A DNA stretch of 35,825 nucleotides from a virus: IMG/VR virus record IMGVR_UViG_3300012926_000012, positions 1 through 35,825 of that record, one strand, 5' to 3'. The position numbers and the translations under genes are program-made. Under the pieces are notes generated by a model that made no database searches, had not been told where the DNA came from, and saw only the letters and a list, made by a program, of their open reading frames with translations. This document shows, in pieces, positions 1 to 15,554 of the stretch (its first letter is position 1; every line of letters starts with the position of its first letter).

Positions 1-1572
1 CGCGGCGGGGACAAGAGCGGATGTATCCAGAGGATCATGCTGGCCCGGCGCATCATGAATCCAGGCACCATCGGCGTCATCGGGATGCGCAACTCCGATC
101 AGGTGAGACGCTACCACGAAGACGTAATGCTTAGGGCATACCCGCAGCTCATGCCCTACTACCATAAGACAGAACGCAAGATTGTTCTCCCCTGCTTGCA
201 AAACTCTCCCCCCTCAGAAATCCATTTCACCTACGCCGAGAGCCTGGACGACGTTATCCGGCGCTTCCGGTCGGCCAACTACTTCGACATCTTCATAGAT
301 CAGGCTGAACAGTTCTCAGAGCAAGAGCTGCGCGAGATCAAGCAGGCTGTACGCTGGCCCGGCGTTCCAATGGGAACATGCAAGTTCATGCTCGCCTTCA
401 ATATGGGCGGTGTTGGCATCGGATTCCTGCGTAAGAAATTCCATGACCACGAGTACAACCAGCGCGAGCGTGCGGAAGACTACGCCTTCATCCACGTTGG
501 ACCATATGACAATGTTGAGTGGGTACGTCCGGCACTGATCGACGATGGCCTAACTCCCGAAGACTTCTACGGTTGGTCTGAAGCAAAGCGGAAAGAGTAC
601 TGTGCCACCCGCAGCGACTACGGAATGTCGCTGGTGAGCCAAGATGACGCGCTCATCAAGCGGGATTTTGAAGGGTCGTGGGACTCACTAGAAGGAGCGT
701 TCTTTAGCCGATCCTATGACCGAGACGCGACAGTGCTTTCTCCAGAGAAAGTATCGGAGTTGATTAGGCCGTGGTGGGAGAAATGGCTTGCTCAGGACTG
801 GGGCCGTGGTCACTACTGCCCTACTTACTGGACGGCGCGCGGTGAAATCTCACCGCAGGAAGCAAAAAGCATTCTTGGATGGGACATCAAAACATCTCTC
901 AAGGTTGCCATCATCTACAGAGAGCACATCGCTGGTGGTGAGGCTGTTGCAGATGGTGGTGGAAATAGGGAATTGTCTGAGAAAGATATCGCTCGCAAGA
1001 TCATTGAACGAACTCCTGCGGGAGAGCGCAACTCATTGCAAGACTTCTTTCTATCGCCAGACGCCTTTGCCAAACGTAGCAGCCATCACACTATCGCCGA
1101 AGAGATGGGCGAGATCATGGACGCCAGCGGATTTCCCTATCCGAGAAGTGCAGACAATGATCGCATAGGCGGATGGGCTTTGATATCCAACCTTCTCCTT
1201 GGAACAAAGCGCCGTGGTATCAAGGGAGACGATGTATTGTTCATCTCCGCTAATTGTCCAGAGCTAATATCCGCGCTTCCTCTGGCAATGCGCGATCCAT
1301 CAAACTTGGACGATGTACTGAAGACCGACAAAGGGTCGGCAAAGATTGAGCAGGACGTCATCGATTCTGCACGCTATGCCCTAAAAAGCATGCTTCAGCC
1401 TGGCCGCAAGCCGCAAGAAGAAAAGGTCAAAGAGCGCATGCGCGAGCTGGAAGACACTGGACTTGATGAGCACAGTCTACACATCTACCGCTGGCGCTTA
1501 AACCAAGAGATGCAGAAGGAAGAAGCACCCATCACGCTGGGTCGAACCCGCAGCCAAATCATTAAACGCTGA
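1..1572 (+). CDS. terL: Phage terminase large subunit (5' truncated by window)
   Basis: Probable large terminase, the ATPase/nuclease motor that packages phage DNA into proheads. The frame is open from base 1, so the N-terminus lies upstream of the window; the first codons read RGGDKSG, possibly the end of a deviant P-loop. Counting from the internal Met at 37, FIDQAEQFSE at about residues 86-95 resembles a Walker B segment. The C-terminal part, with an ISANCPELISALP stretch and a later D-x-x-D-x-x-RYAL pattern, resembles the terminase nuclease-domain end. The small basic repeat gene starts 1 base after the stop. No small terminase or portal gene is visible because the left side is cut. Family assignment is by recognition, without a search. 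Confidence 0.75.
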   Translation, partial: RGGDKSGCIQRIMLARRIMNPGTIGVIGMRNSDQVRRYHEDVMLRAYPQLMPYYHKTERKIVLPCLQNSPPSEIHFTYAESLDDVIRRFRSANYFDIFIDQAEQFSEQELREIKQAVRWPGVPMGTCKFMLAFNMGGVGIGFLRKKFHDHEYNQRERAEDYAFIHVGPYDNVEWVRPALIDDGLTPEDFYGWSEAKRKEYCATRSDYGMSLVSQDDALIKRDFEGSWDSLEGAFFSRSYDRDATVLSPEKVSELIRPWWEKWLAQDWGRGHYCPTYWTARGEISPQEAKSILGWDIKTSLKVAIIYREHIAGGEAVADGGGNRELSEKDIARKIIERTPAGERNSLQDFFLSPDAFAKRSSHHTIAEEMGEIMDASGFPYPRSADNDRIGGWALISNLLLGTKRRGIKGDDVLFISANCPELISALPLAMRDPSNLDDVLKTDKGSAKIEQDVIDSARYALKSMLQPGRKPQEEKVKERMRELEDTGLDEHSLHIYRWRLNQEMQKEEAPITLGRTRSQIIKR

Positions 1573-3065: not shown

Positions 3066-3473
3066 ATGCTATCCGTCTATCTAGCAAGCAGATATTCTCG
3101 AAGAAATGAACTTCGCGAGCACGCTCGGATATTAGAGAAAGCGAGGATACATGTCACCAGCCGATGGCTCCATGAAGACGAACCGCTACAGTGCAAGCTT
3201 GGAGATCATAGCCCAGAGTTTTATCAAGAGACGGCCCTGATCGACCTTGAGGATGTTAGGCAGGCAGATGTCATCGTCTTCTTCTCCGAAGACCCACTCG
3301 TGGGCACACCGCGCGGAGGCCGGCATGTAGAGTTTGGATATGCTCTTGCGTTAGGTAAAAAACCAATTGTGATTGGCGGGGAAGAAAACATATTCCATTA
3401 CTTGCCGTGGGTTGAGGTCTATTCATCGCTCGAATTATTCGTCGAAAGGTATGCGCATGCCGAAGCTGTCTGA
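3066..3473 (+). CDS. Nucleoside 2-deoxyribosyltransferase-like enzyme
   Basis: A 135-residue protein of the nucleoside 2-deoxyribosyltransferase/DNPH1 superfamily, whose members cleave or transfer the N-glycosidic bond of deoxynucleosides or deoxynucleotides. Family features seen are the N-terminal VYLASRYSRR segment, a D60-L-E-D-V-x-x-A-D68 pattern, the GTPRGGRHVEFG loop whose E89 is the expected nucleophile, and the following ALGKKPIVIG strand. A good SD (AAAGGAGAAACGTC) precedes the ATG. The next gene starts inside its 3' end and also acts on deoxynucleotides by family, which suggests a two-gene deoxynucleotide pool cassette. Which base or sugar is used cannot be read from the sequence. 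Confidence 0.82.
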   Translation: MLSVYLASRYSRRNELREHARILEKARIHVTSRWLHEDEPLQCKLGDHSPEFYQETALIDLEDVRQADVIVFFSEDPLVGTPRGGRHVEFGYALALGKKPIVIGGEENIFHYLPWVEVYSSLELFVERYAHAEAV

Positions 3474-3798
3474 AGGTGTAAAGTATGACGAAGGAAAACC
3501 ACGCTATGACTTGCTTCCTCCATACGCCTTAAGCCAGCTTGTCGCTGTCTATACGTTCGGGGCCAAGAAATACGATGATGATAATTGGCGGTTAGGCATG
3601 AAGTGGCGCAGAGTATTTGGAGCCATCTTAAGACACCTGTGGGCATTCTGGGGAGGAGAAGAGACGGACCCGGAAAGCAACGTACCACACTTGGCGCATG
3701 CGGCCTGGGGATGCTTTACGCTTCTGGATTACATGAGATATCGACGCGAGTTTGATGATCGGCCATCAGCCGATGAAACTCCTCGTACTTCCCGGTGA
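3457..3798 (+). CDS. DUF5664 / dATP-dGTP diphosphohydrolase-like protein
   Basis: A 113-residue protein matching the phage DUF5664 family (dATP/dGTP diphosphohydrolase N-terminal domain, related to MazZ). Seen are a YDEGKPRYDLLPPYAL start, VYTFGAKKYDDDNW, and LRHLWAFWGGEETDPES followed by PHLAHAAWGCF, the acidic and His residues expected for metal-dependent pyrophosphate release. The ATG at 3457 is preferred because AAAGG lies 7 bases upstream; 3451 is an alternative. Its first 17 bases overlap the deoxyribosyltransferase gene and its last 83 bases lie antisense to a small minus-strand gene. No PurZ-like gene is in the window, so 2-aminoadenine DNA cannot be inferred; salvage or removal of purine dNTPs is the safer reading. 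Confidence 0.78.
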   Translation: MPKLSEGVKYDEGKPRYDLLPPYALSQLVAVYTFGAKKYDDDNWRLGMKWRRVFGAILRHLWAFWGGEETDPESNVPHLAHAAWGCFTLLDYMRYRREFDDRPSADETPRTSR

Positions 3799-4169: not shown

Positions 4170-4371
4170 TACGCACCCCCGTTATCACGGTGTTTGTTCT
4201 GGGATCATCCTTGTGAAGCTCGATGACTTTCTTCGTAAACCAGAATGGATCAGCCCTGTATAGTTCATCCTGGAACATTTCGGCTGTCCTGCGATGATAT
4301 TCGAGTAAACCCTTAAGCCACTCTATCTCAGACCATGGCCAGATTCGATTGCGTAGAAATTTAATTACCAT
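4153..4371 (-). CDS. Hypothetical protein downstream of dnaB
   Basis: A 72-residue protein, not recognised. The ATG at 4371 is chosen because GAGAGGAAGT sits just upstream, and it gives a compact 11-base overlap with the dnaB stop; a Met 39 bases further upstream has no comparable site. The sequence is amphipathic with many aromatic residues (RIWPWSEIEWLKG) and a helical EYHRRTAEMFQDELYRA segment. Tight coupling to dnaB suggests a replication-associated accessory role, but this is context only. Confidence 0.65.
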   Translation of the reverse strand: MVIKFLRNRIWPWSEIEWLKGLLEYHRRTAEMFQDELYRADPFWFTKKVIELHKDDPRTNTVITGVRNGMQH

Positions 4372-5710
4372 ACTTCCTCTCTCCATCCCAAAATCTACAC
4401 TGCTCGGCAATGTATTCGCAACTAGCCCGGCCTATCGGACCTTGCCGTTGTTTCGCAACGATAAAGACTGCTTTACCCCTTAATTCTTCGTTAGTTGGCT
4501 CGTAGTATTCTGGCCGATGTGGAAAGATCACCAAGTCGGAATCCTGCTCAACGTCACCAGACTCGCGAAGGTCAGACAAGACTGGTTCATGGTCTGTACG
4601 CTTGGCAGTCTCACGGCTAAGCTGGTGCAGGATGATGACTGGAATATCCAAGCTCTTTGCCATAGCCTTTGCGCCGCGCGTTATCATGCCAACCTCTTGT
4701 ACGCGATTGCCGTAGCGCCGTGATCCTTCTGGCGGAGTGATGTGGTTGAGCTGATCGATGATAATGAGATCAAGTCCGGCTCTATTCTTTAGAACCATAG
4801 ACTTTGATCGTATCTGCTGAATGCTCTGGCCCGGAGCATCATCGATATAGATTGGAGCCTCGGCAATCTCTCCCAGGGCCGTGCTTACACGCAGCCTGGA
4901 GGTATCCGTGGTGCGGCCTTCCTGAATCTCCCACAGCGGCACTCCAGCGCGTGCGGCAAGCATCCTATTTAAGATAGCGCGCTTCGCCATTTCAAGAGAG
5001 AAGAATGCGACTTTCTTATTAAGAACTACTCCCGCTTCTAACGCTATGCAGCACGCCGCACTCGTCTTGCCCATTGCAGGGCGAGCTGCTATCACAATCA
5101 AATCCTGCCTCTGAAATCCACACGTCAGCCTATCAAGCTCGCGTAGCCCGGATCGTATTCCATCTGCTCTGGCATTTTGCTCAAAGATTGCGTCGATTCT
5201 GGGGTATTGTTGCTTGACGTACTCCCCAAAGCTTTGCAGTCCAGATGCGATATTCTGTTCGGCCAGAGTTTGGAATGTTGTCTGTGCCTCAGCTACTATT
5301 TCATCGGCGTCGGTAGACTGGTCTGCGGCTGCGGTGATGATGCGCGAAGCTTGTGTGATGGTCTGCCGTAGAACAGACTTATCTTTGATAATCTCAATAT
5401 ATTCGGTGATGCTGATGCGGTATGGAAGTCCTTCCATAAGGCTGGCGACGTAGGCCACGCCGCCTACCGCCTCAATTTCTTTCTTCTTGGACAGACTCTC
5501 GGCCAGCGTCACGATATCTATGGCGTGACCGGATGAAATGAGGTCTGACATACGCGCGAAGATACGTTGATGGCTTGATAAATGAAAGTCTTCAGAGGCT
5601 AGCTTTTCCGAGGCCTCATAGAACGCCGCATTATCGAGCAGAATTGCCCCGAGTACAGACCTCTCCGAATCGAGACTGGCCGGCAGAACTCCCTCGAAAT
5701 CCGAACTCAC
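4361..5710 (-). CDS. dnaB: Replicative DNA helicase, DnaB family
   Basis: A 449-residue DnaB-type helicase, the ring helicase that unwinds the phage replication fork 5' to 3'. The N-terminal domain (about 8-110) has the classic SERSVLGAILLDN start; the linker is about 130-180; the RecA-like domain carries Walker A A209-R-P-A-M-G-K-T-S217, F-S-L-E-M around 237-241, Walker B L-I-I-I-D-Q around 315-320, and a C-terminal IFPHRPEYYEP ... VAKQRQGPIG segment with the arginine-finger region. Length is typical. It starts at a GTG that overlaps the stop of the upstream zinc-ribbon gene (GTGA) with GGAGACGGAT as ribosome-binding site. The initiator and probable loader are on the opposite arm at 18046-19408. 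Confidence 0.96.
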   Translation of the reverse strand: MSSDFEGVLPASLDSERSVLGAILLDNAAFYEASEKLASEDFHLSSHQRIFARMSDLISSGHAIDIVTLAESLSKKKEIEAVGGVAYVASLMEGLPYRISITEYIEIIKDKSVLRQTITQASRIITAAADQSTDADEIVAEAQTTFQTLAEQNIASGLQSFGEYVKQQYPRIDAIFEQNARADGIRSGLRELDRLTCGFQRQDLIVIAARPAMGKTSAACCIALEAGVVLNKKVAFFSLEMAKRAILNRMLAARAGVPLWEIQEGRTTDTSRLRVSTALGEIAEAPIYIDDAPGQSIQQIRSKSMVLKNRAGLDLIIIDQLNHITPPEGSRRYGNRVQEVGMITRGAKAMAKSLDIPVIILHQLSRETAKRTDHEPVLSDLRESGDVEQDSDLVIFPHRPEYYEPTNEELRGKAVFIVAKQRQGPIGRASCEYIAEQCRFWDGERKYGN

Positions 5711-7551: not shown

Positions 7552-7923
7552 TCAGTTGAATTGTTCGTACTTCCAACCCTCGCGGCTATCCCATGACACG
7601 CCGATAAAACGAAACTCTGGATATATTTCTGCGGCAATTTTCACCTTTACCCGAGCATCATCCTCCCAATGGGCACGATCCTCTTTCTTCCACCTAGCCT
7701 TAACCTCGTGTAACTCTACCGACCCATCGGCCAACACGACGAGAAAGTCAGGAGTTAGGAATGTGTTATTCGCCAAGCGAAGCTTGATCGATTCAAAGCG
7801 CCAGGAATGTATCTCGCCGACCATTTTGCGATCATTCAACAAGGAGGCGTACTTAGTCTCAAGACCATTCATGCGTCCTGGAACGTGCTGCGTGCGGCCA
7901 CGTGCGCGAAAGGGATTGGCCAT
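7552..7923 (-). CDS. DUF1064-type PD-(D/E)XK nuclease
   Basis: A 123-residue protein of the DUF1064 family, phage proteins related to Holliday-junction-resolvase-like PD-(D/E)XK nucleases. The active-site pattern is P-D59-F-L-V ... E73-V-K75, with an upstream Glu at about 22 and the family's WRFE ... KLRLANNTFLTPDF block. It would process branched or broken DNA during replication and recombination. It starts at an ATG overlapping the stop of the LexA-like gene (TAATG) and is followed by an intrinsic terminator, so these two genes form the promoter-proximal unit. Confidence 0.85.
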   Translation of the reverse strand: MANPFRARGRTQHVPGRMNGLETKYASLLNDRKMVGEIHSWRFESIKLRLANNTFLTPDFLVVLADGSVELHEVKARWKKEDRAHWEDDARVKVKIAAEIYPEFRFIGVSWDSREGWKYEQFN

Positions 7924-8138
7924 TACAGCACCCTCAGCGAGCGGCTCTTCTTGTCCGCGCGTCCGATATAGCCCTTGGCCTCAAGGCGTAGCACAAGCTT
8001 CCGTGCGGCCACAGCCTGTATGCCAAGCTCGCCGCCGATCTCGCGATAGCTGGGGGAATAGCCAAGTTGCCGGATCAGGTTTTTGATTTTTATGAAGGTG
8101 GCTTTCTGTGATGCGGTGAGTGGATCGCGCCTTACCAT
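7923..8138 (-). CDS. LexA-type DNA-binding protein without peptidase domain
   Basis: A 71-residue winged-helix protein equivalent to the N-terminal DNA-binding domain of LexA: L-T-A-S-Q-K-A at the start, Y-S-P-S-Y-R-E-I-G-G-E-L-G-I as the first helix-turn-helix segment, and a wing near G-Y-I-G-R-A-D. The Ser/Lys autopeptidase domain of LexA is absent, so RecA-triggered self-cleavage is not expected. It is divergent from xis-int and its promoter lies in an operator-rich 170-bp gap, which makes it the best candidate for the lysogeny-control repressor in the window. The ATG lies only a few bases after the predicted transcription start and has no SD. Confidence 0.8.
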   Translation of the reverse strand: MVRRDPLTASQKATFIKIKNLIRQLGYSPSYREIGGELGIQAVAARKLVLRLEAKGYIGRADKKSRSLRVL

Positions 8139-8308: not shown

Positions 8309-8551
8309 ATGGATCCACAAGAGTGCCTTTTGACAGAAGTAGAGATGGCAGAGTTCTTAAAAACAAGCATTAAGACGCTGCAACGTGAGCGGTGCCAAGG
8401 AATCGGTTTCCCCTACCTAAAACTCGGGCATGGGCGCAACGCCAGGGTGCGGTATTATTTGCCGCATGTGCTTGAACACTTGGACAAGTGCAAGCGAGTA
8501 CCCTCCGTGCGGGCACACTTCGAGGACACCTATGCTAAGAAAACGCGGTAA
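8309..8551 (+). CDS. Excisionase-like helix-turn-helix protein
   Basis: An 80-residue protein with a MerR/AlpA-like winged helix-turn-helix: L-L-T-E-V-E-M-A-E-F-L-K-T-S-I-K-T-L-Q-R (7-26), then G-F-P-Y-L-K-L-G and V-R-Y-Y-L-P-H-V-L-E. This architecture is typical of excisionases and small directionality factors. It lies directly upstream of the integrase, whose start overlaps its last 20 bases, so the two are co-translated. It probably binds attP to steer excision; it could also regulate its own promoter. There is no SD, in line with a leaderless transcript. Confidence 0.75.
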   Translation: MDPQECLLTEVEMAEFLKTSIKTLQRERCQGIGFPYLKLGHGRNARVRYYLPHVLEHLDKCKRVPSVRAHFEDTYAKKTR

Positions 8552-9608
8552 ATACTGGCACTACCAATTTGAAGTTGACGGCGTAGCCTACTGGGGATCG
8601 ACGCGGGAAGCCGTGAAGACCAGGGCCGAAATGTTTGAGTCTATCAGGAAGACTGAGATCAGACAGCAAGGCGGCAACGTGTTTCTGCGCAAAGCTCCTA
8701 CGCTCATGGAATTCTCTAAGCGGTTCCTTGAGTTCAATCAACAACAACTCCAGGCCGGGTCCATCGATAAGGATACCGAGCTTTATTACAGGAACGGCTG
8801 GCGTTTGCTAAAAGTTACGGACGTGATCGGCATGCGCATGGATCAGATTGGTACGCCGGATGCCGCAGTGCTGAGCTTTCCGGGCGGGCCATCAAACGCC
8901 AACACTGCTCTTCGTACCCTACGGCGCATGCTGTCCTATGCCGCCGAGCTTGGGGTCATACGCGCCGCGCCAAAGATCAAGCTGCGCGAGGAGCACGGAA
9001 GGGAGGGGACTATCGAGCCGTGGATGGAACGCTTGCTGCTAAAGGAAGCTCCAGACCCATTGGCGGACGTGTTGATTCTCATGCTTGATTGTGGGATGCG
9101 GCCCGAAGAAGTCCTGCGCATGCGCTGGGAGCATATCTCGTGGGAGCGTGATCGCGCTCTGGTGCCCCATGGCAAGTCCCTGCGCTCCAGACGATACGTG
9201 CCCATGTCTAACCGTGTCCGGTCACGCCTACGGGCACGCCAGGCTGCGGGCGAGTGGGTATTCCCGGCTGATTCGACTCCCGGCTACCGCACTACCGTCT
9301 CAAAACAGTGGTTGGCTACTCTCAAGGCGGCCAATGTACGGGCGCGCGAAGAGGGATTGCCGGGCCTGCCCGAAAACATAGTGCTGTACTCAGCCCGCCA
9401 CACCTACGCTACCCGGTACCTTGAGGGTGGCGGGAATGTGGCATCGCTGATGCGGTTACTAGGTCACTCCAGTTTGAGTACTACGCAGAAGTATTTGCAC
9501 CCTGGGATTGCCGAATCAGCCGAAATCGTTAACCGCAACAATTGTAAAACTGTGGTGATGCCTGACATATTGCCTGACATTGCTACGCAACAGGACTGGG
9601 TAAATTGA
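8532..9608 (+). CDS. int: Tyrosine recombinase (phage integrase)
   Basis: A 358-residue integrase that recombines attP with a chromosomal tRNA-Arg gene. An N-terminal arm-binding-like region (1-55) precedes the SAM-like core-binding domain (about 56-155) and the catalytic domain. Active-site residues are R190 (GMRPEEV), K215 (HGKSLRS), R289 (YSARHTYAT), H312 (LLGHSS) and the nucleophile Y321 (TTQKYLHP); the usual His three residues before R289 is Tyr. The ATG at 8532 is chosen because GAGGA lies upstream and it overlaps xis by 20 bases. Its 3' end contains two of the repeated CCTGACA arm-type sites, and the att core follows 21 bases after the stop. Confidence 0.95.
   Translation: MLRKRGKYWHYQFEVDGVAYWGSTREAVKTRAEMFESIRKTEIRQQGGNVFLRKAPTLMEFSKRFLEFNQQQLQAGSIDKDTELYYRNGWRLLKVTDVIGMRMDQIGTPDAAVLSFPGGPSNANTALRTLRRMLSYAAELGVIRAAPKIKLREEHGREGTIEPWMERLLLKEAPDPLADVLILMLDCGMRPEEVLRMRWEHISWERDRALVPHGKSLRSRRYVPMSNRVRSRLRARQAAGEWVFPADSTPGYRTTVSKQWLATLKAANVRAREEGLPGLPENIVLYSARHTYATRYLEGGGNVASLMRLLGHSSLSTTQKYLHPGIAESAEIVNRNNCKTVVMPDILPDIATQQDWVN
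9561..9579 (+). promoter_or_regulatory. attP left arm: two CCTGACA direct repeats
   Basis: TGCCTGACAT occurs at 9559-9568 and again at 9571-9580, a 12-base spacing, inside the last codons of int. The same heptamer CCTGACA occurs as a pair with 11-base spacing on the other side of the tRNA core (9820 and 9831). Paired direct repeats flanking a core are the usual form of integrase arm-binding sites. Confidence 0.6.
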
Positions 9609-9629
9609 CCTTAACTCTATGATTCTAAA

Positions 9630-9675
9630 TGGTGCGCCCAGAAGGATTCGAACCTCCGGCCTACTGATTCGTAGT
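9630..9675 (-). other. attP: attP core: 3' half of tRNA-Arg(ACG)
   Basis: Read on the minus strand, 46 bases match the 3' part of a tRNA-Arg(ACG) exactly in layout: anticodon loop CTACGAA, stem TCAGT, variable AGGCC, T arm GGAGG-TTCGAAT-CCTTC, acceptor TGGGCGC, discriminator A and encoded CCA. The complementary 5' anticodon stem and the rest of the tRNA are absent, so it is not a functional tRNA gene. Tyrosine integrases commonly exchange strands at the anticodon loop and their phages carry the 3' half to restore the tRNA. The position next to int and the flanking repeats make this the attP core. Confidence 0.85.
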
Positions 9676-10130
9676 TCACGGATGTTTTGTCTCCGCAACA
9701 TTGGATTGTCATCGTTTAATCATTCCATATCAACGACTTACAATTCGTCGCCCGCACGGATGTATCTCCCGACAAAACCCTGCAATTCCCAATGTTTACT
9801 CACCGTTTTTCAAGTCGTGCCTGACAAAATCCTGACATCAAATAGATTTCCACACATATACCACTTCGGTACCATTGTCCGGTTACTAAGGTTGATGGCA
9901 ATCTCATCGCATCCACCCAACAGCCACGGACCTCGATGCAAGGATATGCGGGATTCAAAAGGGATTTTGGGCCAAACCCTGCAAGGAGCCTTCACATGGT
10001 AATTTCTGCCACCTCAACCCCTGGAAATTCAACCCTAATCCTATCCGCATCACTCTTTATTGGAGCCTGCGAATGGTACAAACTCGGACTCAGCCTGCTC
10101 AAGCACCTGCCCAGCCAGGAAGTCCCCATT
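9676..10130. other. Gene-poor attP right flank
   Basis: No convincing gene is seen here. Open frames run through the tRNA fragment or lack conserved features. The stretch holds the right pair of CCTGACA repeats at 9820-9826 and 9831-9837. An ATG at 9996 has a good AAGGAG site, so a short peptide cannot be excluded. Confidence 0.5.
9820..9837 (+). promoter_or_regulatory. attP right arm: two CCTGACA direct repeats
   Basis: CCTGACA at 9820-9826 and 9831-9837, 11 bases apart and in the same orientation as the pair at the left of the core. Together they give a P-core-P' layout of about 280 bp. Having both arms around one core implies an intact attP. Confidence 0.6.
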
Positions 10131-11822: not shown

Positions 11823-12031
11823 GGCGTCTCCTTATAGTTCAACCACTGACTAGCAAGTTTGATTGCGCATCTCTCGCCGCAAATGTGCTTCGCGTAACTC
11901 CCCATTGCCATCCCTGCATCCCACTTCATGAGCTTGAAAGTATGCCTCATTGGAATGCAGAGAAACCAGTGGTTCGCTATGCCCTTTTCGGCCCCGCAGA
12001 CATCGCAGGCAAATCGGATGGATTGGCTCAC
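11819..12031 (-). CDS. Cys-rich hypothetical protein
   Basis: A 70-residue protein with F-A-C-D-V-C-G-A-E-K near the start and H-I-C-G-E-R-C near the end, two Cys pairs that could form one zinc site. It begins with GTG overlapping the RecT stop (GTGA), so translation depends on RecT synthesis. A role next to RecT is possible but unproven. Confidence 0.65.
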   Translation of the reverse strand: MSQSIRFACDVCGAEKGIANHWFLCIPMRHTFKLMKWDAGMAMGSYAKHICGERCAIKLASQWLNYKETP

Positions 12032-12993
12032 GCGTCCACCCCAACCTGCTTGGAAGCTAGGATGCTGGCCTCAGCTCGAATTTTCGACCAGTCCGAGTTG
12101 TACTGCTCGACGAAGCGTTGTATCTGCTTTTCATCCCAACCGATCACGTCGAATGCGGCTCTGGCCTCCTTCTCATCCTGAGATGTTTCATGGCTACCTT
12201 CAAGCGTGGGAGCTTCGTCTTGATATCCTGCCGGGATAAAGGTTCCCTCGATAGCTTCCTTCACGCTGATCGTCTGTCCGCCAACATCTGCTGAATAGTC
12301 CAGGTTGGCTGCCGTAGCAACCTCAATGGACTTTGGCATGTATTTGATAACCTGCAAAAGCGCGACCTTGCGACCATACATCTCAAGATTGTTTTCGTTC
12401 TGTAGGGCATAATGCCTTTTCCCAACCTTGTTGTAGCGGTTGAGATGCCTGTTCACCTTGCTGCGCGACCACACTTCAATTGCTGGCCACTGTGAGTTGC
12501 GTACCCATCCCACCGCATAGACATGCGTGAATGGCGTATCGTCGTCAGATTCCATTCCGGGTACATGCTTCAAATCTGGCCTAGTCCCCATCTGGTAGCT
12601 GAACTCATCACCCACGTGGACGGCTCCGGTCCACACGCTGGCGCGGCCTGAGCGCGATACAAGATCCACATATCCTTGCCAGCCTGGAACCAGTGAGCAG
12701 GTCCCGCCATATGGAATCAGGTAAGCCTGCCCCATGACGCCAGGCTCAAGGCCTAGCTGTGCGGCAATGATGATGCTCGCAAATACTGAGCGAGGATCAC
12801 ACTTACCAAGCTCGGGATTTTTCCTGAATTCCGTAAGGGCGATGCGCGCCATGCGGTCAGGATTGAGATGCTTTGGAAGGGCAAGAGCAATTTGTTGCTT
12901 GTACTCTTCCAGCATCTCTGGGAAGGTGAACGACTTGGTTTTGGACGCGAGCTCCGATGTTCCGGTAGCCTTCTTCAATTCAGCGACTGACAT
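12028..12993 (-). CDS. recT: RecT-family single-strand annealing protein
   Basis: A 321-residue RecT/Bet-like protein that anneals complementary single strands during phage recombination. Family features include P-D-R-M-A-R-I-A-L-T-E-F-R-K-N-P, the S-V-F-A-S-I-I-I-A-A-Q-L-G-L-E-P segment, the A-Y-L-I-P-Y-G-G ... W-Q-G-Y-V-D-L block (about 85-115) and W-S-R-S-K-V-N-R-H. Length is slightly above the norm because of an acidic C-terminal tail (about 245-321). It follows the YqaJ exonuclease by 16 bases and has GGAGGAAAC before its ATG. Exonuclease plus annealer is the classic two-gene recombination unit. Confidence 0.95.
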   Translation of the reverse strand: MSVAELKKATGTSELASKTKSFTFPEMLEEYKQQIALALPKHLNPDRMARIALTEFRKNPELGKCDPRSVFASIIIAAQLGLEPGVMGQAYLIPYGGTCSLVPGWQGYVDLVSRSGRASVWTGAVHVGDEFSYQMGTRPDLKHVPGMESDDDTPFTHVYAVGWVRNSQWPAIEVWSRSKVNRHLNRYNKVGKRHYALQNENNLEMYGRKVALLQVIKYMPKSIEVATAANLDYSADVGGQTISVKEAIEGTFIPAGYQDEAPTLEGSHETSQDEKEARAAFDVIGWDEKQIQRFVEQYNSDWSKIRAEASILASKQVGVDA

Positions 12994-13009: not shown

Positions 13010-13867
13010 CTATGCGGCGCGGAACACGCGGAACTTGACAGGCTCTACCGTGTATCCCTTCCGCTCTTGTAGTTTTCGTGTAGCCAGCTTCTTACCATTT
13101 GAATCAACTATTTCGGTGTGATCTTTCATGAACTTGAATATGTCCAGCTCCATGAGTTCACACTTGGCCTCGTCACCCGCCAAGCCCTTCTTGAAAAGCT
13201 TGTACCGCTCGATAATCTCCACGATCTCCGATGTAGCCTCAATCGAGTTACCGCTATCTTTTGGCCAAGCAAGGTTCACATCTGCGAGGCTGGTGATGGG
13301 CGGCGCTACATGCTTGTCAACCATCTCCCAGAAGTCAATGCAGCGTTGCCGGATCAGCGAGATCATTTCCTCGTCACGCTCAGTGCGATAGATACGCAGA
13401 TCGTCGGCCCCAATCATTGCCGAGCAGAGTGTGCGCTCACAGCCGCGTATCATCTGGCCGAAGAGAAACTGGACTGTGTAGTGGAGTGGAATCTCGTCTG
13501 TGCCCTGTTCGCCCCACTGATAGGCCACGCGTGGATGGACGGTTTTAACGTCGGCGTTCTGGACTCCATTTACATCCATCCATTCAAAGTCAATCTCGCA
13601 AGAGAGAAATGACAGTTCGGGATCGCAAAATCTTTGATTCCTGGAGACGATCTCGATTCCATATTCCTCGCGCGTCATTTCGATGACGTAAGGCTCAAGC
13701 ATCTTCCCTCGCCGCAGTACCTTATCGCGGGATACATCGAAATCGTCCTCCACCTGCCCAGTCTTCTCCATCCAAAGCTGGTAAGGGGTTTTATAGGGCG
13801 ATACGCCAAGGATCGCAGCGGCATCGCTTCCTCCGATAAATTTTGTGCGGTCCAGTACAGCTTCCAT
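13010..13867 (-). CDS. YqaJ/lambda-exonuclease-like nuclease
   Basis: A 285-residue YqaJ-type viral recombinase exonuclease that resects double-strand ends to feed RecT. I see I-G-G-S-D-A-A-A-I-L-G at 11-21 with the following S-P-Y-K-T-P-Y-Q-L-W, E58 in KMLEPYV, C-E-I-D93, and A-D106-V-K108-T as the catalytic D...(D/E)xK set (Val between Asp and Lys). The Q-F-L-F-G-Q-M segment follows as expected. The ATG at 13867 is chosen over upstream Met codons because GGAGGGAAAC precedes it and the conserved domain begins right there. Active together with RecT. Confidence 0.92.
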   Translation of the reverse strand: MEAVLDRTKFIGGSDAAAILGVSPYKTPYQLWMEKTGQVEDDFDVSRDKVLRRGKMLEPYVIEMTREEYGIEIVSRNQRFCDPELSFLSCEIDFEWMDVNGVQNADVKTVHPRVAYQWGEQGTDEIPLHYTVQFLFGQMIRGCERTLCSAMIGADDLRIYRTERDEEMISLIRQRCIDFWEMVDKHVAPPITSLADVNLAWPKDSGNSIEATSEIVEIIERYKLFKKGLAGDEAKCELMELDIFKFMKDHTEIVDSNGKKLATRKLQERKGYTVEPVKFRVFRAA

Positions 13868-13884
13868 GTTTCCCTCCGTATTAC

Positions 13885-13916
13885 ATGCGCCGCGCCTAGT
13901 TAAGAATGCGGCGCAT
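13885..13916 (-). other. 9-bp hairpin upstream of the exonuclease start
   Basis: ATGCGCCGC (13885-13893) and GCGGCGCAT (13908-13916) are perfect inverted repeats with a 14-base loop. The hairpin sits between the stop of the upstream gene and the SD of the exonuclease. No T run follows, so it is more likely an mRNA processing or translation-control element than a terminator. Confidence 0.45.
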
Positions 13917-13923
13917 ATTGGTA

Positions 13924-14193
13924 TTAGTCTCTTACCGGAGCCCTGCCCCAATCGTTCACTTCTTCTGCGATGATGACTTCGCCCTCTGCATTAGAGGGGC
14001 ATAGGTGTGGTTTGTGTTCCTGATGTTGAAGTGGAGTATCGTCGAGCACGCGAACAAAAATCTGCCCATCCCTCTCGTACATCTCCACGGCATCAGCTTC
14101 ATCGGTACAGAGAGAGTGGTGATGTCCAGACTGTTCACCTAGAGCCAACGGGCGAGTGAGAATGCGTTTTGCTTTTTGTGGAATGCGATCCAT
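13924..14193 (-). CDS. Small protein with GHHH and EH motifs, partner of the DUF6745-like gene
   Basis: An 89-residue protein with L-A-L-G-E-Q-S-G-H-H-H near residue 20, a beta-rich V-E-M-Y-E-R-D-G-Q-I-F-V-R-V-L, then P-L-Q-H-Q-E-H and E-G-E-V-I-I-A-E-E-V. I recognise this layout (GHxH, strand, HxEH, strand) from small uncharacterised proteins found in phages and bacteria, sometimes beside DUF6745-type genes. The conserved His residues suggest metal binding or chemistry. AAGAGGTTC precedes the ATG at 14193. It follows the repeat-containing gene by 62 bases. Confidence 0.65.
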   Translation of the reverse strand: MDRIPQKAKRILTRPLALGEQSGHHHSLCTDEADAVEMYERDGQIFVRVLDDTPLQHQEHKPHLCPSNAEGEVIIAEEVNDWGRAPVRD

Positions 14194-14255: not shown

Positions 14256-15554
14256 TCAACTGTGCTGCTGTACAAGCCGCGCGTCTGATTGATCTAGCCA
14301 CCAGACCAAGACATCTCCCTGCCTGATGTATTTGCCCGACTTGTACTCTGCCTCAGTTTTCTTGAATGCCCGTCCTACGGCCTCATAAACCCGAGTTTCG
14401 TTGTGGGCAACACGCTGGATATACATTTTCCCAGTACTGGGGCAAACAAGCCGCACGAATCGCAGTGGGCGATCTTCAAAATCGCGCAAGATAGAACTCT
14501 CAAGCAGTTCGGCTTGCTCTTCGCCTTCGATATACTCCATTGCTTCTGGATTGCGATTATCGACAAGCGCCGATGGTTCTAATTTGGGGAAGCGCGAATG
14601 TAGAGTATCCGAATGGATAACCAGGACTTTAGACTCCTGTACGAATCTATGCCATCCCATCCGCTCAACCATGACGCGCCGAACTTCGGCATTTTCTTCT
14701 TTCGATATCTGCTCGACAGTGATTGCATCGGGATTTTCAATTACGATCTGCGGTACTCGTGTCCCATGCCATGCCCAAATAGAAAACCTATCTGGGTATC
14801 CCAAAGCTGGTCCATCTTCACAATGCAGGCGGCCTTCTTCATCGCGATGTAAGATGCTATGCCGCTCAGAAACCCAGCATATTTTTTCATGAGGAAGGAA
14901 CCATCCCGCATGCTGTGCAAGTAGCGTCAATCCCTCTAATAACCTAGTTTGATCGCGAAAGCCGCATACTTCGCGGAAATAATCGTAGAAGGCCAGCCAC
15001 CCGGCGTCATGTTGTCCATATCCGCTGTCCCAGACGCTGTCCCTGACGCTGTCCCTGACGCTGTCCCTGACGCTGTCCCCGACGCTGTCCCTGACGCTGT
15101 CCCTGACGCTGGCCCTGACGCTGTTCCCGACGCTGTTCCCGACGCTGTCCCAGACGCTGTCCCAGACGCTGTTCCCGACGCTGGCCCTGACGCTGTCCCA
15201 GACGCTGGCCCAGACGCTGTTCCCGACGCTGTCCCTGACGCTGGCCCCGACGCTGTCCCTGACGCTGGCCCCGACGCTGTCCCTGACGCTGTCCCTGACG
15301 CTGGCCCCGACGCTGGCCCCGACGCTGGCCGGAAGATTGAGGACAATTGCTCTCGTCAAACCTTGGGATAGCGGGGATTCACACCATACAATGCGTGGAT
15401 GCGCCTTGCCTGCGGACTCATAGGCCAGATTGATGGCCCGCTCCGCCTCAACTCGATTAGCTGGCTCTGTAGATAGACCAATAGACGTCCACTTGTCACA
15501 CCATTCGTTAAGGCGCTGAGTTTGTTCCGCAGTAAGATTTTCGATCTTAACCAT
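14256..15554 (-). CDS. DUF6745-like protein with a central SVxx tetrapeptide repeat domain
   Basis: A 432-residue protein in three parts. Residues 1-77 form a helical N-terminal region. Residues 78-177 are about 25 copies of a four-residue unit S-V-[RGW]-[DAN]. Residues 178-432 form a conserved-looking domain with F-Y-D-Y-F-R-E-V-C-G, L-H-C-E-D-G-P-A-L-G-Y-P-D and a terminal W-L-D-Q-S-D. The C-terminal part and the repeat resemble uncharacterised DUF6745 proteins; no enzymatic function is known to me. GGAGAAAGT precedes the ATG, which overlaps the previous stop (TAATG). The 12-bp DNA repeat makes the gene prone to copy-number change. Confidence 0.7.
   Translation of the reverse strand: MVKIENLTAEQTQRLNEWCDKWTSIGLSTEPANRVEAERAINLAYESAGKAHPRIVWCESPLSQGLTRAIVLNLPASVGASVGASVRDSVRDSVGASVRDSVGASVRDSVGNSVWASVWDSVRASVGNSVWDSVWDSVGNSVGNSVRASVRDSVRDSVGDSVRDSVRDSVRDSVWDSGYGQHDAGWLAFYDYFREVCGFRDQTRLLEGLTLLAQHAGWFLPHEKICWVSERHSILHRDEEGRLHCEDGPALGYPDRFSIWAWHGTRVPQIVIENPDAITVEQISKEENAEVRRVMVERMGWHRFVQESKVLVIHSDTLHSRFPKLEPSALVDNRNPEAMEYIEGEEQAELLESSILRDFEDRPLRFVRLVCPSTGKMYIQRVAHNETRVYEAVGRAFKKTEAEYKSGKYIRQGDVLVWWLDQSDARLVQQHS
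15024..15323. repeat. Tandem 12-bp repeat, 25 units
   Basis: Twenty-five uninterrupted 12-bp units of the form GCT-G[TG][TC]-CC[TCA]-GAC on the plus strand. On the coding (minus) strand each unit is GTC-NGG-[GAC/GCC/AAC]-AGC. Variation is confined to three nucleotide positions and never breaks the period. The array lies inside the DUF6745-like gene and keeps several other frames open by chance. Confidence 0.95.

Follow-up and report, generated by a model that had tools for sequence, protein, structure and literature searches.

The locus at positions 9559-9838 raises the question of whether an environmental phage carries a working attachment site (attP) and, if so, into which host and which gene it integrates. 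The 35,825 bases analyzed here (the window) are a linear, metagenome-derived fragment recorded as a virus in IMG/VR; an initial annotation had described a complete attP, with half of a tRNA-Arg(ACG) gene as its core and paired CCTGACA arm sites on either side. We put the probability at about 0.93 that 9559-9838 is the attP of a temperate Acidobacteriota phage that uses a lambda-like integrase (Int) to target tRNA-Arg(ACG), and it is very likely that this soil-bacterium phage integrates into a host tRNA-Arg gene at this position. What was observed is the sequence itself, the host target, a layout shared across the family and genuine attL/attR pairs from relatives; the exact crossover point is predicted.

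Table 1. Predicted elements of the attachment site and landmark genes of the window
Feature	Position	Strand	Remarks
Terminase large subunit	37-1572		
DnaB helicase	4361-5710		
Candidate excisionase / recombination directionality factor	8309-8551	+	80-aa helix-turn-helix (HTH) protein; overlaps int start
int, tyrosine recombinase	8532-9608	+	358 aa; PF00589, E 6.8e-24; start most likely at 8532
Predicted P-arm site P1	9561-9567	+	CCTGACA, inside int; 10-bp repeat TGCCTGACAT starts at 9559
Predicted P-arm site P2	9573-9579	+	CCTGACA; 12 bp after P1, 50 bp before core
attP core	9630-9675	- (tRNA sense)	46-bp tRNA-Arg(ACG) 3' half, anticodon loop through CCA; exact match G160:C2, G447:C10
Possible extra arm site	9768-9774	+	CCCGACA, one mismatch
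Predicted P'-arm site P'1	9820-9826	+	CCTGACA, intergenic; 144 bp after core
Predicted P'-arm site P'2	9831-9837	+	CCTGACA; 11 bp after P'1
RecT	12028-12993		
YqaJ exonuclease	13010-13951		

The gene adjoining the core encodes the tyrosine recombinase residue set R-K-(H/Y)xxR-H-Y. Alignment places the catalytic residues at R190, K215, Y286xxR289, H290, H312 and Y321; K215 is nearly invariant across the integrase family alignment, and the others (R190, Y286, R289, H290, H312 and Y321) are invariant. A PDB profile search matched int to XerA, XerD and HP1 integrase, and a Pfam search of its N-terminus, where the segment reads GKYWHYQFEVDGVAYWGST, gave no arm-binding domain match. Beginning 21 bp beyond the int stop codon, the core is the reverse complement of a tRNA-Arg(ACG) 3' half that starts at nucleotide 31, takes in the entire anticodon loop and finishes with the encoded CCA, the extent that had been claimed for it. 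ARAGORN detected no tRNA anywhere in the window, and the 5' half of the gene is absent. Because the core is flanked by phage genes left and right and this 5' half is missing, the site is an attP of the free phage form rather than an attL or attR; the shared 46 bp, which cover the anticodon loop and everything 3' of it, are what would restore the tRNA upon integration.

An exact scan of IMG/VR and genome_contigs with the 46-mer returned zero matches. A degenerate version of the pattern identified tRNA-Arg(ACG) genes in Acidobacteriaceae and Thalassospira, and genes that differ by one base occur in Paracidobacterium acidisoli, a Silvibacterium MAG and another MAG (Acidobacteriaceae). Thalassospira was set aside as a host because its anticodon stem differs (A for T at nucleotide 43) and all int relatives used came from Acidobacteriota. 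In a sample of 396 Acidobacteriota genomes, the exact core was present in G160, where identity extends one base further (47 bp, 9629-9675). We also searched 300 genomes of G160's family, which includes the Paracidobacterium genome G019: two of them (G160 and G447) carry the exact 46-mer in an intact tRNA-Arg(ACG) gene, thus providing the host gene with an identical 3' end that the initial annotation had proposed to look for, and 15 more carry the core within two mismatches. No integrase was present in the 19.5 kb fetched around the G160 site. The core's tRNA match thereby points to Acidobacteriota, and within it to the family of Paracidobacterium, as the likely host group.

Re-checking left the coordinates of the core and its four repeats unchanged, together with the reported spacings and common orientation of the repeats, all of which are on the plus strand. 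The left pair lies within int's last codons and is identical over 10 bp, TGCCTGACAT occurring at 9559 and again at 9571. CCTGACA by itself is not rare (7 occurrences in the window versus 4 expected). However, when the flanks were dinucleotide-shuffled 20,000 times, no 7-mer ever formed pairs at 10-13 bp spacing to the left and right of the core, and elsewhere in the window such a paired layout occurs only in a 12-bp minisatellite at 15023-15327. The four repeats are predicted arm sites that Int would bind. The CCCGACA at 9768 was considered as a third P' site and rejected, as relatives give it no support.

Relatives of the window int (E<=1e-40) were found in 48 of the 300 genomes of G160's family, and none was found in IMG/VR. 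In those genomes the products are 36-50% identical to it; the best identity in the viral and genome collections is 46-50%, and no lysogen of the window phage was found there. Among integrases of 30-50% identity, most are encoded by genes that end shortly ahead of an oppositely oriented tRNA gene, with Glu, Met, Lys, Gln, Thr, Leu, Arg-CCG and Arg-ACG among the targets. A tandem pair lies near the int stop at a spacing of 12 bp in 28 of 47 int ends and of 11 bp in another 10 (exact runs of 6 or more were counted, and the rows are not fully independent), versus an expectation of about 1.5 ends at each spacing and 0-5 seen at spacings other than 11-12 bp. The pairs read mostly GNCACA in the relatives (GTCACA, GGCACA, GCCACA, GACACA, also GTCATA) and CTGACA in the window; no close relative with the CCTGACA letters exists in the collections searched. 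Since the letters differ at the same spacing, the register is conserved and the letters are not. The comparison with close relatives that the initial annotation called for thus had distant ones to draw on, in which the register of the pair is kept and its letters differ. In many relatives (e.g. L036, L072, L080, L089 and L110) the pair, at 11 or 12 bp, follows the int stop codon, and because pairs occur both before and after this codon, coding constraint does not explain them.

For six integrated elements (in G286, G565, G105, G380, G391 and G601), both ends could be located by the duplicated tRNA half. In all six, the motif of the int-side pair is present again at the other end, 99-141 bp inward of the core with 11-12 bp spacing, and the arm copies share one orientation, as they do in the window. 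The element in tRNA-Glu of G286 has GTCACA twice at 12 bp on the P side and CGTCACA twice at 11 bp on the P' side, 134 bp from the core; that in tRNA-Lys of G565 has AGCCACA twice at both ends (12 bp; 121 bp). The P pairs of G105 (Leu), G380 (Thr) and G391 (Lys) are GGGCACA, CGGCACA and GGTCACA, each present twice, with P' counterparts GGCACG/GGCACA (12 bp, about 130 bp), AGGCACA/CGGCACA (12 bp, 141 bp) and GGTCACA/GGGCACA (11-12 bp, 99 bp). In G601, which is occupied at tRNA-Arg(ACG), TACGACA/TCCGACA at 12 bp precede the core by 51 bp, compared to 50 bp in the window, and TCCGACA then TACGGCA at 11 bp, read by eye, follow about 129 bp after it. In the integrated relatives, duplication of the tRNA extends as far as the anticodon loop. 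This common plan, the host 3' half and the flanking phage genes together support the P-core-P' arrangement originally proposed.

G447, which has the identical core, contains a relative's int adjoining a regenerated tRNA-Arg(ACG), with the displaced copy about 62 kb away; its P pair is present, and a P' copy of its P motif is not recognizable. In this element (G447:C10:106115-168012), the displaced tRNA half reads CTACTAA for CTACGAA, and the regenerated tRNA is intact. At L039 (G391:C1 700844-701893), the tRNA-Lys 3' half and int share one reading direction, unlike in most other relatives, and the arm-pair layout is nevertheless that of the other relatives.

In a maximum-likelihood tree of 50 integrases, the window int groups with L078 (from G601) and L084 (support 99/94). 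Among supported relatives that have an att site L078 is thus the closest, and it sits in tRNA-Arg(ACG). The next supported group (98/85) adds L114, L083 and L085 (tRNA-Arg(ACG)) and L081, L073 and L076 (tRNA-Gln). Because groups in the tree share tRNA targets, target choice follows integrase lineage. L084, from G577 and in the same supported clade as the window, has no adjoining tRNA and no arm pair. At two N-terminal positions where arginine is nearly invariant in the family, 19 and 21, the window int has A and W, respectively; R21 is kept by most of the family, and W21 occurs only in the window int and L078 among the sampled integrases. These two also share GACA-type arms (CNGACA in the window and CGACA-type in L078, versus the family's GNCACA), and the L078 tRNA-Arg core is nearly identical to the window's. 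Residue 21 might conceivably be a natural switch of arm specificity, and arms that can be read from sequence would then make an Int arm-recognition code testable, an idea about which we are more doubtful than confident. A comparison of arm letters with integrase columns revealed no excess covariation in the N-terminal over the catalytic domain, as phylogeny swamps the signal; given this lack of a special N-terminal signal, the association between W21 and arm letters is a lead and not a result.

If Int acts like its counterparts in lambda and the mycobacteriophages, it would bridge the arm sites and the core, its N-terminal domain binding P1, P2, P'1 and P'2 and its central and catalytic domains exchanging strands in the anticodon-loop part of the core. 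Integration into tRNA-Arg(ACG) would part the host gene's 5' half from its 3' half, which would be displaced and mark the other prophage end. Since the phage copy would supply an identical 3' half, the tRNA would be regenerated beside int. Against the attP reading weigh the lack of a recognizable P' pair in the G447 element, of the CCTGACA letters in any close relative, of an arm-binding Pfam match and of excess N-terminal covariation, and the presence of the exact 46-mer in no more than 2 of the 300 family genomes.

The repeats might instead belong to an attP in which an excisionase, repressor or nucleoid protein, rather than Int, is their main ligand. An HTH protein is encoded beside int in the window and in many relatives: the 80-aa product matches HTH_17 weakly (E 0.003, below the cut-off), and tblastn located homologues (~30-42% identity) at some 25 loci of int relatives, where they precede int wherever positions were compared. 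The protein is a candidate excisionase. Direct repeats one helical turn apart would also suit MerR-like factors, and a LexA-like protein is encoded nearby at 7923-8138. However, in mycobacteriophages Int arm sites are arranged as pairs of one orientation flanking the core (PMC3706429, PMC3203893, PMC10865867). Arm pairs are also present at L044 and L105, where no HTH match was seen, and recombination directionality factors usually act on one arm. We consider it improbable that another protein is the principal ligand.

Still less probable is that an earlier integration or an imprecise excision left the core behind as a decayed attL/attR or a tRNA fragment, so that it is not part of a working attP. 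The record is a linear metagenome fragment with no known lysogen, as such a remnant might be, but the core lies between phage genes, lacks the tRNA 5' half, and is undamaged and identical to two host tRNAs; moreover, the int reading frame is intact and encodes every catalytic residue, and neither arm pair contains a mismatch. Finally, that the core alone functions, the left pair being a coding repeat (it encodes an MPDI-LPDI peptide repeat, and 12 bp equal four codons) and the right pair a coincidence, is hardly credible, since the right pair is intergenic, the layout is absent from the shuffles, in six relatives the P-side motif is found again at the opposite prophage end, and pairs beyond the int stop codon refute such an origin in the relatives.

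With a tyrosine recombinase beside the core, a core equal to a host attB and arm repeats on both sides, the site is a lambda-type attP; its plan is nearly identical to that of mycobacteriophage Omega, and the design is therefore already known. Lambda is the prototype, a tyrosine recombinase whose N-terminal domain recognizes arm-type sites (P1, P2 and P'1-P'3) flanking the core, with additional IHF and Xis sites. The window shares the recombinase and the flanked core, whereas lambda's attB is not a tRNA gene and its core is 15 bp, compared to 46 bp of tRNA-Arg here. In Omega and Cluster J, for which plasmid integration by int-attP has been shown, attP likewise lies on the 3' side of int and direct-repeat pairs flank the core (PMC3706429). 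Omega's 44-bp core is the 3' part of a tRNA-Leu gene with its left end in the anticodon loop, its P1/P2 and P3/P4 repeats (~10 bp) read TGCATACg/tPuPy rather than CCTGACA, its core lies ~100 bp from the int 3' end rather than 21 bp with P1/P2 inside int, and its host is actinobacterial, in contrast to the likely acidobacterial host of the window phage (PMC3706429).

Two pairs of ~11-bp arm-type repeats also flank the core in CrimD and Pixie (Cluster K), Giles and L5; they are in direct orientation in Giles and L5, as in the window, and their letters differ between phages with related integrases (PMC3203893). Unlike the window, CrimD has an inverted P3/P4 pair and a tmRNA target, and Pixie and L5 have extra arm sites (PMC3203893). 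The window core fits Islander class A, in which a 3' tRNA fragment is duplicated up to the anticodon loop and the tRNA is regenerated, although that class comprises integrated islands and the window is a free phage form (PMC4383910); we observed the class A pattern in relatives G286, G447, G565, G601, G105 and G380. In tRNA-dependent lysogeny, by contrast, a short core destroys the tRNA and the phage encodes a replacement (PMC10865867); the window core is 46 bp and restores the tRNA, and the window has no tRNA gene. A literature text search covering Acidobacteria prophage integrases and tRNA-Arg retrieved no publication.

To this known design, the relatives usefully add an arm register shared across a family in Acidobacteriota. 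A likely host group and an exact integration site can be named for an unclassified environmental phage, and arm motif, pair spacing and tRNA target are all readable from sequence for dozens of integrases. Such a collection could reveal the rules by which N-terminal domains select their arm sites, and it could serve in constructing integration vectors for Acidobacteriota, a phylum with few genetic tools.

Elsewhere, phages sharing DnaB or RecT with the window had no related int, except for two weak fragments, and annotated phages showed no DNA match to the window and int identities below 32%. The LexA-like product at 7923-8138 (minus strand; 71 aa), which adjoins the integration module, consists of the LexA DNA-binding domain alone (PF01726, E 2.6e-13), the protease half being absent, and is a candidate lysogeny regulator. 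A gene at 3373-3798 (plus strand) encodes a dATP/dGTP diphosphohydrolase N-terminal domain (PF18909, E 1e-35) and adjoins a deoxyribosyltransferase-like gene (3066-3473); together they might reflect a modified or depleted nucleotide pool. The minisatellite mentioned above comprises 25 copies within an ORF at 14256-15554 (minus strand), where it encodes a short tetrapeptide-type repeat (SVRDSVGDSV-like) fused to DUF6745 (PF20530, E 1.4e-36), and other frames are also open as long ORFs through the repeat.
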